Below, in pieces: positions 1,495 through 38,518 of a stretch of DNA of 39,058 nt. Location of the stretch: positions 1-39,058 of the IMG/VR virus record IMGVR_UViG_3300014711_000003. The stretch is one strand, 5' to 3'. The translations under genes were made by a program, and so were the position numbers. Positions within the stretch are counted from its first letter, which is position 1, and every line of letters begins with the position of its first letter. The notes beneath the pieces are model-generated. The model saw nothing but the letters and a program-made list of their open reading frames with translations, did not search any database and was not told where the DNA came from. The DNA comes from a virus.

Positions 1495-1761
1495 TTACTC
1501 GTAAGAAATAGTTGCTGTGACAGTGCCGCCGATCACGACGTAAATGCCTTTGTTGGTGTACAAACCTTGGAAAAAGTTGTGCATCGTGTTAGATGTCGGC
1601 GTAAACGTGGCCAAAACCACGGGATCAGACGTGCTGGAGACAGCGGAGTCATAAACCGTGATGGTCGGCGTGCTTGATGCGGCGCTTACAAAAATACCGT
1701 TGATTTTGCCCGCGGCAGGTTTAATTTGCGACGTTGCGGAAATGGCTGCGTAGTTAGACAT
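1495..1761 (-). CDS. Small virion-associated protein, unknown function (88 aa)
   Basis: Starts at ATG 1761 behind a strong AAGGAG with 5-nt spacing, and ends 4 nt before the tail-fibre start. The sequence is a Ser/Thr/Val-rich, probably all-beta protein (TITVYDSAVSST, then VLATFTPTSN and YVVIGGTVTATISYE). Proteins with this pattern occur next to phage fibre or decoration genes. The context, between the Dps-like gene and the fibre in the late unit, suggests a minor structural or fibre-associated protein. I do not recognise a specific family. Confidence 0.75.
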   Translation of the reverse strand: MSNYAAISATSQIKPAAGKINGIFVSAASSTPTITVYDSAVSSTSDPVVLATFTPTSNTMHNFFQGLYTNKGIYVVIGGTVTATISYE

Positions 1762-1770
1762 GCTGGCTCC

Positions 1771-2133
1771 TTATGCCAAGAACTTCAATTTATACAGAGT
1801 CGTGAGATACAACTCAACGATGTTGTCAATCAGCTGTTGCAAAGACGAATCCGTCTTCGGTACAACATCATATCTTGCGGCTTCTAGGTCAGCAAGTTGG
1901 CTTTCCAAAAACTCAATGATGTTGTTTGTTTTCTTGGCCGAGTGCAGTGTGATGGGGCCAATCAGGCCATGCCGGCCTTGATAGGCTTCAGCAAACGCGT
2001 CCGCATGGTCAATGATGCTGTCGTAGAACGTGTTGAGCGCCATGTGCTTGCTGAAACTTCTGGTGTTCAGATGCACACTGTGCGCCACATCACGGGCTAG
2101 GAATAATTGGCCTACAAATTCTGCTGCGTTCAT
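1771..2133 (-). CDS. Dps/ferritin-like protein (DUF5856-like), 120 aa
   Basis: Helical protein starting MNAAEFVGQLFLARD; its ATG overlaps the portal stop (ATGA at 2133-2130), so translation is probably coupled. Residues H18, H30, D45 and E49 have spacings 12, 15 and 4, the same as the ferroxidase ligands H31, H43, D58 and E62 of Listeria Dps. Y37 also falls where Dps has its conserved tyrosine, and DAFAE resembles the Dps DExAER motif. At 120 residues it is shorter than Dps (about 150-165). Phage proteins of this look are known to me as DUF5856. Roles could be iron or peroxide protection or a structural helical bundle; neither is shown here. The Dps relation is inference from residue pattern. 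Confidence 0.7.
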   Translation of the reverse strand: MNAAEFVGQLFLARDVAHSVHLNTRSFSKHMALNTFYDSIIDHADAFAEAYQGRHGLIGPITLHSAKKTNNIIEFLESQLADLEAARYDVVPKTDSSLQQLIDNIVELYLTTLYKLKFLA

Positions 2134-4310
2134 TGTTGCATCTCTCCAGGTTCTTGGATCATCTCGGGTGCTTCTTGTGCTTCGTTAGGCATTTCGCGGT
2201 GCATTTCACCTAACATACTTTGCGACTCCAAAGCCGCCGCGACCACGCCCATGGCGATGTCTTGAATCTGTTCCTCAGACATGCCTGCCTGCACGGCGCT
2301 GATGCGCTGCGTTTCAGCCTGATAGGCCTTGACCTCAGCTTCGTAAGCCTTGATGTCCAAGTCGCGCGCTTCCATGGACTGCTGCACGTTTTGGAGCATC
2401 TTGTACATGTTCTCCATCTCGGCGCCCATGGCCTGAATCTGCTGCTCTGCGGCTTGCAACTCAGGTGACTTGTCGTCATCTTGCAAGATCTTGGGATCAA
2501 TGGTCTTGGCAAAACGCTTGGCCATCTCCTGCGCGCCAGGCCAGTCCATGTTCTTAACGAACAAGTCGCCGGCCACTTGCCACAGTTGTGGGTTGCCTTG
2601 CAAGAGTTGCGCCATGGCTTCCAAGGCCTCTTGGCGCTTGGTCGCGTAGCCTGGGCCAGTGGTGGCCACCACGTCGTACTTACCGACGCCTGGGTTGTAG
2701 ATCTTCTCGATCACAATGCCCTGCTGATCCACAATCTGCTTGACGGGTTCTTGCTGCTCGGGGTTAATCTTGACCATCTTAGTCTCGCCATCTTCACCGA
2801 TGATGCGAGCAATACGAGCCGTGTCGTAAATCTTAGGAATCAAGTCGACCAGCTGGCGCGCAATGTGACGAACCGCACGGCTCAAGTTGTCGCCGTAATG
2901 GTACGTGCCCACGTCGCCTTCGCGCTGACGCGCTAAGATGGCCTTACCGCTGCGCTCGTTGCCGCCAAGGCCCAAACTAGCGTCATATTGACCCGTTGTG
3001 GCCTTGATGTCCTCAGATGCGCCCGCTTTGGCCTGCAACAGACCGCTGGAAGCCATTGGAGGCTGTGCCCGCTGGGGTAGTGGCAACACGGCGCCTTGGC
3101 CGTCTGTAACGTCTGGATTGACTTCCAGATAGGGCCAATTGTTCGTATTGGCCGTCTTCCACTTGTCTTCGTAGCCTTCAAACTGGCCGCCGTAGCCAAT
3201 AAACGGTGCTTTAGGCGCCAAAGCCAGCATTTCAGCCTCTTGTGACACCCAATAGTTGTACATGCGCTGGGCATCCTTGGCGTTACGCACCAAGCCACTG
3301 ACATACAAACGGCCATCAACTTCAAACTCATTACCAACAACGCGAATGACTGGAATCCACTTGCCAGCCCACTCTTTTTCTTCGAGGATCTCGTAACCGT
3401 TGATCTTGCAATATTTGACCTTGGGGTTGACCGATTCACGGGTGCGTTTGGGCTTGCCGTATACGAGACGGAGTTGCTTATCTTCAGCCGTACCCTCAAA
3501 AGCCGTCTGACCGCCTGGATAGAGGTTCAGTTTGGCTTTTTCGTAGTCAATGTAGTAGTAACCAGCGATGCGCACCGTGTCTTCGTTCAGCCAGTTGCTG
3601 ATCGACTGGTCACCCACGCCAAGCGACTGAAGTGTCGAGATGGGCGCTGCATCGGGGTACATGCGCTCATACTCAGCTTTGGTCAGGTCTTCGGTGATGA
3701 AGCACCACTTAGCATCTGCACCCGTTGGGTCTTGGATCAATGGATCCATGTAGACTGAGAACGAGTTGCGGATCCGGCCAATCTTGATGTCTTGATCGAA
3801 TGTGTTGGGGTCGCAGTATTCGGTGTACAGCGTGATGTAACCCTCGCCGTAGGACACCTGATTTTCACATGCTGTGTCGTAGGCCACGTCTGCGTCACTG
3901 ATGTACTCAATGTGACGGATCATGCCGTTGAAAATCTCAGCCACCTGCACGTCGGCGTTGTCATCGACGGGGATGACCTTGGCGCCAGGCCTGTTCTGAC
4001 GCATGTCGTTGGTCACTTGACGAACGTGTTGCGGCAGTTTGTTGATTGTGAGCGTCGGGCGTGCGTTGATCGTCTGACCCTGCACCGCACCGCGGGTGGC
4101 CAGCACGTCAGCAGGCCATTGCCAATGATTGTCGGGCGAGCCTGCGTAAAAGCGCAGGTCATCTATCTCATCTTCACGGCTTTCCGCCAATGCAGAGACA
4201 GCCATGTCCAGCCTGGCACGCGCCACGGTCAGGATGTCGGAAGCGCTATTCTTAGGCTTGCCGCCAGCTGCGACGTTCGCCGCCGCAACGATACCAGTTG
4301 GATCAGTCAT
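2130..4310 (-). CDS. Portal protein, P22 gp1 type (726 aa)
   Basis: Forms the dodecameric ring at the packaging vertex through which DNA enters and leaves. The length (726 aa) and the order of segments match the P22-like portal family: an N-terminal region with PTLTINKLPQHVRQVTNDMR and QNRPGAKVIPVDD, a segment of the EDDIRFYAG type (here DEIDDLRFYAGSP), and a long Glu/Gln-rich helical C-terminus (about residues 600-726) that would form the barrel. The start ATG at 4310 overlaps the co-chaperonin stop (ATGA), and its own stop overlaps the Dps-like start. It lies between packaging genes and virion genes, as expected, but it is separated from the scaffold by a fibre module, which is unusual for P22-like order. 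Confidence 0.93.
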   Translation of the reverse strand: MTDPTGIVAAANVAAGGKPKNSASDILTVARARLDMAVSALAESREDEIDDLRFYAGSPDNHWQWPADVLATRGAVQGQTINARPTLTINKLPQHVRQVTNDMRQNRPGAKVIPVDDNADVQVAEIFNGMIRHIEYISDADVAYDTACENQVSYGEGYITLYTEYCDPNTFDQDIKIGRIRNSFSVYMDPLIQDPTGADAKWCFITEDLTKAEYERMYPDAAPISTLQSLGVGDQSISNWLNEDTVRIAGYYYIDYEKAKLNLYPGGQTAFEGTAEDKQLRLVYGKPKRTRESVNPKVKYCKINGYEILEEKEWAGKWIPVIRVVGNEFEVDGRLYVSGLVRNAKDAQRMYNYWVSQEAEMLALAPKAPFIGYGGQFEGYEDKWKTANTNNWPYLEVNPDVTDGQGAVLPLPQRAQPPMASSGLLQAKAGASEDIKATTGQYDASLGLGGNERSGKAILARQREGDVGTYHYGDNLSRAVRHIARQLVDLIPKIYDTARIARIIGEDGETKMVKINPEQQEPVKQIVDQQGIVIEKIYNPGVGKYDVVATTGPGYATKRQEALEAMAQLLQGNPQLWQVAGDLFVKNMDWPGAQEMAKRFAKTIDPKILQDDDKSPELQAAEQQIQAMGAEMENMYKMLQNVQQSMEARDLDIKAYEAEVKAYQAETQRISAVQAGMSEEQIQDIAMGVVAAALESQSMLGEMHREMPNEAQEAPEMIQEPGEMQQ

Positions 4311-4540
4311 TCCAAAACCCCTAAAATATGAGGCTCACGCATCACGACCAAATTGGTGTTGTCGTGCTTAAACTCTTGCCCTACGCCGAAGTATACGTGA
4401 TCACCGACCTTAACGTCTAGGCACAAGGGGCCAACTGCGACAACTTTTCCCGTCTCACTGTCTGAGTGCTGTGGCAACACAAACAGTGGATGCTTTTCCA
4501 TGTCGCGCTCGATGATGACGCAGTTCTGGAGTGCTTTCAT
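4307..4540 (-). CDS. GroES-like co-chaperonin (77 aa)
   Basis: Start chosen at ATG 4540 (MKALQNCVIIERD), preceded by AGGA; the longer frame upstream has no ribosome site. The sequence follows the Cpn10 pattern: a VIIERD first strand, a hydrophobic mobile-loop-like LFVLP, then TGKVVAVGP, VKVGDHVYFG and LVVMREPHILGVLE in the expected order. It is 77 residues against about 97 in bacterial GroES. Phage co-chaperonins such as T4 gp31 replace GroES to fold capsid protein on host GroEL, and that role is inferred here. The stop overlaps the portal start, which ties its expression to virion assembly. Confidence 0.8.
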   Translation of the reverse strand: MKALQNCVIIERDMEKHPLFVLPQHSDSETGKVVAVGPLCLDVKVGDHVYFGVGQEFKHDNTNLVVMREPHILGVLE

Positions 4541-4556: not shown

Positions 4557-4586
4557 ATGCAATAGCAACGTATGGAGCTATTGTAT

Positions 4587-5009
4587 ATGAAAAAACGAGA
4601 TCGGACTGGCGCTATTTTGACTTGCGCCGTATGTGGCGAACTTTTTAGAGTGCCCACATACAGAAAAGAAAAAGCCAAATATTGCTCTCGTTCTTGCTTG
4701 GCAAAAGAACATTTGGAAAAGTTTGCGCATCTTCGTTTTCGCCCTACTAATAAACCTGCTCACACTTACAAAACCATGACTGTAAATGGTAAACAAGTGC
4801 GCGTCCATAGGTATGTTATGGAGCAACACTTGGGCAGAAAATTGGCTTCGTGGGAGCATGTTCATCACATCAATGGTGACTCACATGACAACCGGCTAGA
4901 AAATTTAGCCGTGCTGTCAAATGCAGCGCACCAAAAGATTGAAGTTGAAGAACGCATGAGGCCTATTTGGAACGCTTTGCAGCAGGAGCCTTTGCCGCCG
5001 CACGTTTAA
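4587..5009 (+). CDS. HNH homing endonuclease (free-standing), 140 aa
   Basis: Encoded against the direction of the surrounding late genes. Start chosen at ATG 4587 (MKKRDRTG) because GGAG stands 9 nt upstream; the ATG at 4572 lacks a site. An N-terminal zinc ribbon is visible (C13xxC16 and C33xxxC37), followed by the HNH nuclease core HVHHINGDSHDNRLENL and a final His. Such enzymes nick or cut DNA to spread their own gene. The last 47 bases overlap, antisense, the end of the 50-residue gene at 4963-5115. The gene looks AT-richer than its neighbours, which suggests recent insertion. Confidence 0.88.
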   Translation: MKKRDRTGAILTCAVCGELFRVPTYRKEKAKYCSRSCLAKEHLEKFAHLRFRPTNKPAHTYKTMTVNGKQVRVHRYVMEQHLGRKLASWEHVHHINGDSHDNRLENLAVLSNAAHQKIEVEERMRPIWNALQQEPLPPHV

Positions 5010-5115: not shown

Positions 5116-6642
5116 TTAACTTCCCATCCATGAGGTTGCAACCACGCTTCGATCACTGTACGTGCGGCGCTGCGTGGGTTCACGCGCCTCACGATGGGCC
5201 ACAGGATAGGCAAAAGTCACGCAAATAGCGTCTGCCGCGTCGGGTGACGCGAGGCCTCTGGCCTTCATGTCCTTTTTCGACTCCAAAAAGATGGTTCCCT
5301 TGGAGTCGGGCTTCATCATAGGCGAAATTAGATCAGTTTTTAAGAACCTGTCAAGCGGAATTGAGGCTGTTTTGAGCCAATCTTTCATCGCACCCCACAT
5401 TTCAGCCCGTTTGTTGCCGTACATGATGGGATTCTTGGCTTTATTGCCAAAATTGATGCCCTTGACCTTGTAGCGCTGCTCTTTCAAGCGGTCGACAATG
5501 CCAGCACCCAGCCCGCCCTCGTCAATCACGACTAAAGTTGGCTTGTATTCCTCTATGACGTCGATCACATGGCCAACCACGGTCATGGTGTCGTCTCCGC
5601 GATGGCGCCGGATCGAGACAATGTCCCGCCCCTGCCGTATGGCGATGACCGTCGCGTCCGCGCCGAAACGCGCTGGGTCAACGCCGATCACAATCGGGGC
5701 TGAGGCGTCTTTGTATTGAGGCCGTTTCATCGCATCGTCCACCAGATTGGCTGAGATGAACTGATCGTCGCCTTCAGACGGGAATTGACCGTAGACCTCA
5801 ACGTGCGCCTGTGATGACTCAGGCCCATATTCGTCAATGATCTGCTGATACACCTGCTTGTCGGTGCCCTCGACTGTGCGGGCGTCCACCACCTTGGTTG
5901 TCCAGAACTCGCGTTTGCTGTTAAAACACTCGTAAAAGTACCCCGTGTTGCGGCGCGGGTTGGAAAACGCCATCCAGAACCTGTTGGGCGTGTTTTCTGT
6001 GAAGAAGCCAGACGTGACGGCCCAGATGCTGTCGTCAATACCAGACGCCTCGTCAAAGATAACCAGCACACCGTCGAAGTTGTGCACACCCGCGTAAGCG
6101 TCGGGATTTTCCGCTGACCACAGCCGACCCTCGACGCCCCAATAACGCGTGCCTTTCTTAAGGTCACGCTCGACCAGTTCCGTGAGCCACTTGGCTGGCA
6201 TCAGTCGGGTCGCGGACACCTCAAACCAGTGACTGTTGAGCGACATCGCCAGCCACTTGGTAATCTCGGCCCATGTGACAGAGCGCAACTGCGATTCTGA
6301 GTTAGCTGAGATGATGGTCGTCGAGCCGATCCGCGTGGACAACATCCATATCGTGATCCATGACACTAGGGCCGACTTACCAATACCACGGCCTGACGAG
6401 ACAGCGTGGCGTAAGGTATCAAAGTCCAACTTACCTTGGTTAGCTTTGATATGCGCTGCAATGTCACTGAGGACTTCTCGCTGCCACTTACGTGGGCCTG
6501 AGAAGTGTTCCAATGGCGTGCCAGGTTGGCCCCATGGAAACGCAAACATCACAAACGCCAGCGGGTTATCCTTGATCGCTGGCGACCACAGCCGCGCCAT
6601 CAGTTCCTGTTCGTCTTCAGCGCTGTATATGGTCGATTGCAT
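5116..6642 (-). CDS. terL: Terminase large subunit (508 aa)
   Basis: DNA-packaging motor and nuclease. The ATPase domain shows Walker A SSGRGIGKSA (about residues 82-91) and Walker B VLVIFDEAS (192-200, DE catalytic). The RNase-H-like nuclease domain shows VIGVDPARFGADATV (D322), LVVIDEGGLGAGI (D374) and a C-terminal SPDAADAICV aspartate, the expected acidic triad. Length is normal. The start at 6642 overlaps the small-subunit gene by 26 nt, which indicates coupled translation. The Ser/Arg-rich tail after residue 480 probably contacts the portal. Confidence 0.95.
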   Translation of the reverse strand: MQSTIYSAEDEQELMARLWSPAIKDNPLAFVMFAFPWGQPGTPLEHFSGPRKWQREVLSDIAAHIKANQGKLDFDTLRHAVSSGRGIGKSALVSWITIWMLSTRIGSTTIISANSESQLRSVTWAEITKWLAMSLNSHWFEVSATRLMPAKWLTELVERDLKKGTRYWGVEGRLWSAENPDAYAGVHNFDGVLVIFDEASGIDDSIWAVTSGFFTENTPNRFWMAFSNPRRNTGYFYECFNSKREFWTTKVVDARTVEGTDKQVYQQIIDEYGPESSQAHVEVYGQFPSEGDDQFISANLVDDAMKRPQYKDASAPIVIGVDPARFGADATVIAIRQGRDIVSIRRHRGDDTMTVVGHVIDVIEEYKPTLVVIDEGGLGAGIVDRLKEQRYKVKGINFGNKAKNPIMYGNKRAEMWGAMKDWLKTASIPLDRFLKTDLISPMMKPDSKGTIFLESKKDMKARGLASPDAADAICVTFAYPVAHREAREPTQRRTYSDRSVVATSWMGS

Positions 6643-34113: not shown

Positions 34114-34689
34114 TTAAAGCCCCTTTCTTGCAGCCCATCGGGCTTTATTGGCTACAGAAATTTTCTGCTTTGCTTCATCGGTGTGGTACCGGCCAGTGCT
34201 AGTAACGCTAATTTTGGCACGTGTTTCAGCAGAAATAATTTTATTTTTATTTAGCTCAGAAAGACGTTTTTTCTGTTCTTCGCTTATTGTACAAATGCCT
34301 TTTTTGGCTTTTGATATATTTTGTTTGTGCTCGTCCGAAAACACGCGATTTTTAGCCGCCGCGCTCATCTTAGCGCGTGTTTCAGCAGAATGTTTTGTGC
34401 CAAGTGGTGAATTAGCAGTAGGGCGTCCGTTGTACGTGGGCGCAAAAAAATTCATCCAAAATTGTTCGCGCTCAATCAATTCAGACCGATTGTCAACGTA
34501 TTCAATAATTTCCCAATCGAAATGCTGTGCGCCATACTTATCATACGCGCGTTGAAGACGCTGGTTGTAATGAGATTGTTTAGCTAACGCGCAACGATGC
34601 GCGTTCCATCTACGGTTAACAGCCACGGCAGAACCAACGTACATGTCACGTGTTGTTTGATTCACGATGGCGTAGATGGCGGATGCCAT
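34114..34689 (-). CDS. GIY-YIG homing endonuclease with NUMOD3 repeats (191 aa)
   Basis: N-terminal GIY-YIG nuclease: IYAIVN and MYVGSA (the two named motifs), RRWNAH, and a catalytic Glu in SELIEREQFW, then N in TYNGRP. C-terminal half holds five NUMOD3-like DNA-binding repeats (for example KHSAETRAKMSAA, FSDEHKQNISKAKKG, ISAETRAKISVTSTG). Lower GC than neighbours suggests mobile origin. The TAA is directly followed by the gp4-like ATG, so it is transcribed with the late genes. Likely a free-standing homing gene, not within an intron. Confidence 0.92.
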   Translation of the reverse strand: MASAIYAIVNQTTRDMYVGSAVAVNRRWNAHRCALAKQSHYNQRLQRAYDKYGAQHFDWEIIEYVDNRSELIEREQFWMNFFAPTYNGRPTANSPLGTKHSAETRAKMSAAAKNRVFSDEHKQNISKAKKGICTISEEQKKRLSELNKNKIISAETRAKISVTSTGRYHTDEAKQKISVANKARWAARKGL

Positions 34690-37946: not shown

Positions 37947-38267
37947 TTACGCCGCCCAAGGCAGTGGGGGCGTTACCACTGGCGGGTTAATCTGGTTTTG
38001 AATCTGCTGATCCACAGCTGCTTCAGTCGCGGTCTGGTCAACGCCATTAGCCCAAATCCATCCAAGCACTTGGTCTTGAGTCAGGTCAGCATAGGGCGTG
38101 AATGTGCCTGTGCCAGACAAAGGTACTTGGCAAGTGGAATAGACAGAAGCGTTGTATGTTCCGTCTGTGCCAGAGCAAGTCCAATGCACATTGAACACCA
38201 CATCGGTTTCATTGTCGGCTTGTGGGTAGCAGTCAAGAGCCGAAACGCTCCAAGTGATTGTTGTCAT
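37947..38267 (-). CDS. Small late protein, unknown function (106 aa)
   Basis: Start chosen at ATG 38267 (MTTITWSVSALDCYPQ) with GAGG 7 nt upstream. Contains VVFNVHWTCSG and WIWANGVDQTATEAAVDQQI near the end, then a Pro-rich tail. This pattern recurs in small phage structural-region proteins (I think of the DUF7936 kind, without certainty). Its start lies near the stop of the 82-residue gene. Confidence 0.72.
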   Translation of the reverse strand: MTTITWSVSALDCYPQADNETDVVFNVHWTCSGTDGTYNASVYSTCQVPLSGTGTFTPYADLTQDQVLGWIWANGVDQTATEAAVDQQIQNQINPPVVTPPLPWAA

Positions 38268-38269
38268 GT

Positions 38270-38518
38270 TCAAGCCTCAGTAGGGTTGTAGGGTTGTGGA
38301 GATGGTTGTGACCAAGCGTATGTGGCAATGTTGAGGTAATAAGCCTCATCCAATACTGTTGATGCTTGTGGGTCATTGGGTACTAGAGTTGTGCGCCAGT
38401 AAGTTGACGAAATGACAACGCCATCCTTGAGAACATCGGTGGTCTTGCGAACACCAATGCAACCATTAGGTTGGATGTTGAATTCAGAGATGCTAGTGAC
38501 TTCTGTGAATGTAGACAT
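38270..38518 (-). CDS. Small late protein, unknown function (82 aa)
   Basis: ATG 38518 with AAAGGAAA upstream. Sequence MSTFTEVTSISEFNIQPNGC and VRKTTDVLKDGVVISSTYWR, then DEAYYLNIATYAWSQPSP. This type of short protein is frequent near phage fibre and decoration genes; function unknown. First gene after the tail fibre in transcription order. Confidence 0.75.
   Translation of the reverse strand: MSTFTEVTSISEFNIQPNGCIGVRKTTDVLKDGVVISSTYWRTTLVPNDPQASTVLDEAYYLNIATYAWSQPSPQPYNPTEA

Follow-up and report, generated by a model that had tools for sequence, protein, structure and literature searches.

A portal-coupled DUF5856 gene of a podovirus encodes a probable compact relative of the Dps mini-ferritins

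The gene at positions 1771-2133 of the 39,058-nt viral record analyzed here as a whole (the window) encodes another member of DUF5856, a known but little-studied protein family, and its similarity to the Dps mini-ferritins at the profile level supports its assignment as a shortened, distant Dps relative. We consider it probable that the product is a compact Dps derivative of the ferritin superfamily, which would bind metal, be coupled in expression to the portal, be carried at low copy number in the particle, and limit damage by iron or peroxide. A preliminary description of the same DNA, made from its sequence, proved right in outline but not in detail.

According to PHROG matches, the record derives from a podovirus with P22-type head genes. 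It encodes a portal protein (PHROG 156), a major head protein, a scaffold, a head closure protein, and a tailspike or tail fiber, together with a DNA polymerase, a primase, and a helicase. The open reading frame (ORF) of 120 codons described previously is indeed present in the ORF list of the record, on the minus strand, starting at 2133 and stopping at 1771. Its product has a computed mass of 13.5 kDa, a pI of 5.8, and a net charge of about -4 at pH 7. The gene and its neighbors are as follows.

1771..2133, minus strand: DUF5856 / PHROG 858 gene for a putative compact Dps-related protein (PF19174, 71.5 bits against a cut-off of 34.6, E = 1.2e-19; PHROG 858, E = 1.5e-24 over residues 2-119)
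2130..4310, minus strand: portal gene, 726 aa, P22-type (PHROG 156, E = 9.5e-133)
4307..4540, minus strand: gene for a GroES-like co-chaperonin, 77 aa, directly upstream of the portal gene (PHROG 3188, E = 7.5e-11)
5116..6642, minus strand: terminase large subunit gene, in the same late gene run (PHROG 2, E = 1.8e-40)
1495..1761, minus strand: next downstream gene, 88 aa (ORF list)

The TGA of the portal gene shares four bases (ATGA, 2130-2133) with the ATG of the DUF5856 gene. The coupling to the portal gene claimed earlier is therefore real, and an overlap with the upstream ORF recurs in 76 of 80 close relatives (four bases in 62, one base in 14), in a comparison where neighboring genes were chosen by a simple ORF rule. 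In two relatives, ctNMl277 and DSL-LC05, a portal is annotated at the corresponding place. The profile search found no family match for the 88-aa downstream gene, and no second, full Dps or ferritin was found in the 17 related viral records searched. GroES-like genes also lie near the DUF5856 genes of DSL-LC05, cta1H496, and L098, making this a recurrent neighborhood. By eye only, a plus-strand, HNH-like ORF (4572-5009) breaks the late minus-strand run, and a minus-strand ORF between tail genes (34114-34689) resembles homing endonucleases of the GIY-YIG/NUMOD kind.

Searching annotated phages with the 120-residue protein as query returned 618 records, while the homologue from LIMEstone1 returned 1,435, chiefly from Ackermannviridae and T4-like phages. 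T4 rI.-1 (MobD.6) is itself a clear DUF5856 member (E = 3e-37 to the family profile), related over its full length and with the four invariant residues described below. It differs in having an extra N-terminal stretch and in lying beside rI, whereas the gene studied here overlaps the portal gene. DUF5856 genes also occur in jumbo Eneladusviruses, in Caulobacter phages, and in several freshwater groups, viral contigs having been scanned with single-protein queries. A metal- or peroxide-handling protein expressed with virion genes, which the preliminary description regarded as unusual, seems plausible; such a gene is less exceptional than was supposed, however, in a family so widespread and with T4 rI.-1 among its members. 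Matches to DUF6202, Phage_TAC_7, and flavorubredoxin in Pfam/NCBIfam (E = 0.04-0.18) fell under the cut-offs and were rejected. One 39,166-base contig, L072 (IMGVR_UViG_3300047279_000052), carries two non-identical DUF5856 copies near its opposite ends (870-1226 and 38017-38373) with flanks matching at 84-96%, which suggests either that two strains were joined in assembly or that a partial duplication occurred.

The kinship with Dps mini-ferritins proposed earlier was supported by profile searches with reversed controls, and it is detectable at that level only. A single-sequence PDB search with the 120-residue protein gave no matches. The Ferritin model PF00210 did not match this protein, and matched only 3 of 59 relatives (best E = 0.011). 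When the family profile was compared with all PDB chains, Dps-type proteins dominated, with a best E value of 5.1e-6. Some designed (de novo) helical proteins also scored against the full-length profile, and the search was therefore repeated with helices A and B only. Of the 32 PDB matches at E<=1, 30 were then Dps or neutrophil-activating protein (NAP), with the four ligands in register, and it is only this A-B alignment between profiles that is specific. A reversed-sequence profile, used as a negative control, found no Dps match among the PDB sequences. Likewise, hhalign against seven Dps sequences gave a probability of 93.5% (E = 2.3e-7, 111 columns), compared to 1% for the reversed control. 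The two families are joined by gp36 of Streptomyces phage Tomas (L296, 1543-1944), which matches both the Ferritin model (1.7e-9) and DUF5856 (8e-4, below the cut-off of that model). That amphipathic helices merely look alike by chance, with no Dps kinship, would agree with the empty single-sequence searches for a ferritin and with the scores of the de novo bundles. We regard this as the least credible account, given that the A-B profile matches almost only Dps with its ligands in register, that reversed controls find nothing, that Tomas gp36 bridges the families, and that an independent Phyre2 analysis assigned Sajous1 gp217 to ferritin (PMC10892097).

Dps proteins have already been reported in phages (PMC8008677, PMC6669764), and genes resembling E. 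coli Dps were found in 141 phage records, 95 of them from Streptomyces phages. These phage-encoded true Dps proteins (Tomas gp36 and its relatives, those of Lactobacillus phages, and those of "Gratiaviridae") have the Dps fold and are thought to curb iron or peroxide damage. Unlike the protein studied here, Tomas gp36 matches the Ferritin model directly, and its gene has glycosyltransferase genes as neighbors, whereas the Lactobacillus phage dps genes lie among DNA-metabolism genes. Portal coupling of a true phage Dps was not seen in the stretches compared or in the literature covered.

To define the ligands, residue conservation was counted over 286 aligned DUF5856 sequences and the register was read from the profile alignments with Dps. 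The codons concerned are listed below.

2080..2082, minus strand: H18, first ligand of the preliminary description, one turn before H21 (alignments)
2071..2073, minus strand: H21, predicted counterpart of the Dps helix-A ferroxidase His (E. coli H51, "HW"; profile alignments)
2044..2046, minus strand: H30, predicted counterpart of the Dps helix-B His (E. coli H63; alignments)
1999..2001, minus strand: D45, predicted counterpart of E. coli Dps D78 (alignments)
1987..1989, minus strand: E49, predicted counterpart of E. coli Dps E82 (alignments)
1825..1827, minus strand: D103, in the presumed C-terminal helix and outside the known Dps ligand set (conservation)

All the residues named earlier, i.e., H18, H30, D45, E49, Y37, and a DxxAE motif at 45-49, are present. 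The first four had been read as the 12-15-4 spacing of the Dps ferroxidase ligands. The spacings of 15 and 4 are in register, and H30, D45, and E49 do align with Dps ligands, but the first histidine should be H21, which pairs with the histidine of the Dps "HW" motif, Dps having three extra residues in the A-B turn. The profile alignments thus indicate H21-9-H30-15-D45-4-E49 as the correct register. The spacing of 12 is a coincidence that arises because another histidine sits one helical turn earlier, and a register based on H18 was ruled out, as this residue aligns elsewhere in the Dps profile alignments and is not invariant. H21, H30, D45, and E49 are each present in 286/286 sequences, compared to 276/286 for H18 (R, Q, or K in the remainder). 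In the 59-sequence alignment, which reaches down to about 20% identity, the same four residues are invariant and H18 exceeds 90%. Shuffling the 120-residue protein produced the 12-15-4 pattern in 0.07% and the 9-15-4 pattern in 0.08% of cases, and the ligand pattern exceeds chance. In addition, D103 is acidic in 283/286 sequences (276 D and 7 E) and possibly represents an additional, DUF5856-specific metal ligand.

Compared with Listeria Dps (1QGH), B. subtilis MrgA (2CHP), H. pylori NAP (1JI4), and E. coli Dps, the protein shares, at the level of profile homology, the helix A-turn-helix B hairpin and the H-H-D-E ligands with identical spacings of 15 and 4. It is nevertheless smaller (120 residues, compared to about 145 to 170 for Dps), with an A-B turn three residues shorter and a shorter B-C linker, and it has neither a long tail nor a Ferritin Pfam match. 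The fifth ferroxidase carboxylate of Dps (E. coli D67), invariant among the seven Dps sequences used, is lost; the position is N34 here and mostly G in the family, with N, A, Q, or D also found. This loss may have weakened or abolished ferroxidase activity. Because the fifth ligand is missing and the core is shorter, the chief alternative to our reading is a metal site that is weaker or purely structural. The protein would then be a minor virion component near the portal or neck, built on a Dps-like helical hairpin whose His, Asp, and Glu residues hold a structural metal (e.g., zinc) or steady a dimer, with no redox chemistry. Such a role, which we rate as possible but doubtful, agrees with the lost ligand, with the acidic pI in a protein devoid of a Lys-rich tail, and with the translational coupling to the portal in the clade of this record. 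On the other hand, the H-H-D-E set found in every one of the 286 sequences is easier to reconcile with iron than with a generic structural use.

The presence of homologues in virions, which would suit a structural protein as well, was shown by others. ORF78 of LIMEstone1 was identified from purified particles as an "unknown structural protein" (3 peptides, 28% coverage; PMC3296691). Sajous1 gp217 was detected in purified virions with 10 spectra, and Phyre2 assigned it to ferritin at 96.7% (PMC10892097). These two are the same protein, since 108 of 117 residues are identical. They match DUF5856 (Pfam E = 8.8e-29), are about 33 to 37% identical to the 120-residue protein, and are encoded not beside the portal but beside a primase gene and other virion proteins. 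ValerieMcCarty03/04 gp108/gp100, annotated as a "starvation-inducible transcriptional regulator," yielded 26/27 spectra from CsCl-purified virions (PMC13119998), and gp108 belongs to DUF5856 (E = 5e-34). The spectral counts are low and carry-over of the homologues is possible; the Sajous1 authors themselves considered carry-over contamination (PMC10892097). The earlier suggestion that the protein is part of the particle therefore has published mass spectrometry behind it for homologues in other phages, from which its presence in the particle of this phage would follow by analogy.

Two further readings start from the same virion proteins. From mass spectrometry and Phyre2, a "ferrojan horse" route of entry was put forward for gp214-217 of the Vi01-like phage Sajous1, in which an iron-loaded virion protein exploits the iron-uptake receptors of the host (PMC10892097). 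We consider this published proposal very improbable for DUF5856, as plating of Sajous1 was similar on Salmonella IR715 strains mutated in tonB, in feoB, or in both (PMC10892097), and iron buried within a Dps cage would not be readily visible to a receptor. The protein could also bind packaged or replicating phage DNA and condense it in the manner of Dps. This is suggested by the Dps homology, by database labels such as "starvation-inducible transcriptional regulator" (the label of PHROG 858) or "DNA binding protein," and by the ValerieMcCarty authors, who place the protein among DNA-associated virion proteins (PMC13119998). The label is inherited, however, and the acidic pI, the net negative charge, and the lack of a basic N- or C-terminal tail argue against Dps-style DNA binding, which leaves condensation improbable in our estimation. 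DNA binding is absent from many true Dps proteins as well.

Gene neighborhoods in other lineages bear on where the protein acts. The DUF5856 gene overlaps a T7-type connector/portal gene by four bases in the distant contig L196 and lies about 400 bases from one in L226. It adjoins tail-fiber genes in several of the L211-L224 group and an internal virion protein in L281/L282. Elsewhere its neighbors are PAPS reductase, RusA, NinB, HNH, methyltransferase, or ParB-like genes. That many lineages have it amid methyltransferase or DNA-metabolism genes, or adjoining rI, instead of at the portal counts against our preferred reading. A universal portal linkage was ruled out, since neighbors differ by lineage; late surroundings with a link to the virion come up repeatedly, though not everywhere. 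The gene of T4-like and several other phages is located outside the structural clusters, which would be odd for a part of the portal vertex and speaks against the structural reading. The gene's place in T4-like phages is next to rI or overlapping it, and in Caulobacter phage GB2A the endolysin gene directly follows it. This raises a role in lysis timing, whereby the protein would act in the infected cell, as reported for T4 rI.-1, and influence lysis inhibition instead of handling metal. In its favor, rI.-1 is a family member with conserved ligands, and its over-expression lengthens lysis-inhibited latency, yet only slightly, according to Golec et al. 2010 as reviewed in PMC6832632. The RaK2 homologue, in turn, occurs in a phage lacking T holin, RI, RI.1, and RIII (PMC3622015), the gene at 1771-2133 does not adjoin lysis genes, and phages that differ widely all retain the metal ligands. 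We therefore judge an accessory function in lysis timing to be unlikely.

Given the Dps homology and the homologues in virions, a virion-borne, metal-binding Dps derivative is the likely identity of the protein. As we picture it, DUF5856 would have descended from the Dps mini-ferritins or share a common ancestor with them, and would keep a Dps-like core of four helices while shortening both the A-B turn and the B-C linker and lacking a long N-terminal tail. H21, at the end of helix A, would join H30, D45, and E49 on helix B in a metal site spanning the two-fold dimer interface, as in Dps, most likely for iron. Translational coupling to the portal would ensure late production, and the particle probably carries the protein in small copy number, by analogy with the homologues. 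Its most likely action would be the binding or oxidation of Fe(II), which could lessen Fenton damage to phage DNA or proteins, whether within the particle or inside a dying cell. A bolder version, which we put forward as speculation and consider rather unlikely, is that unrelated tailed phages (P22-like podoviruses, T4-like, and Vi01-like phages) carry an active minimal mini-ferritin whose four-ligand iron oxidation protects the genome against Fenton chemistry while it is packaged or as it enters, and that in this podovirus group translational coupling delivers it at the portal vertex.

Phage Dps proteins, DUF5856 as a catalogued family, and the ferritin assignment of one member were known before this work. 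The present analysis contributes an alignment with Dps backed by controls, corrects the set of ligands, places T4 rI.-1 in the family, and documents that coupling to the portal is conserved among freshwater podoviruses. The database label "transcriptional regulator" is called into question, as support for it was not found. DUF5856 stands in Pfam without a function, despite 1,435 phage records in one search and homologues in purified virions. Taken together, the ferritin-like ligands, the three virion mass spectrometry studies, the T4 rI.-1 genetics, and the portal coupling raise the question of whether phage particles carry iron chemistry.
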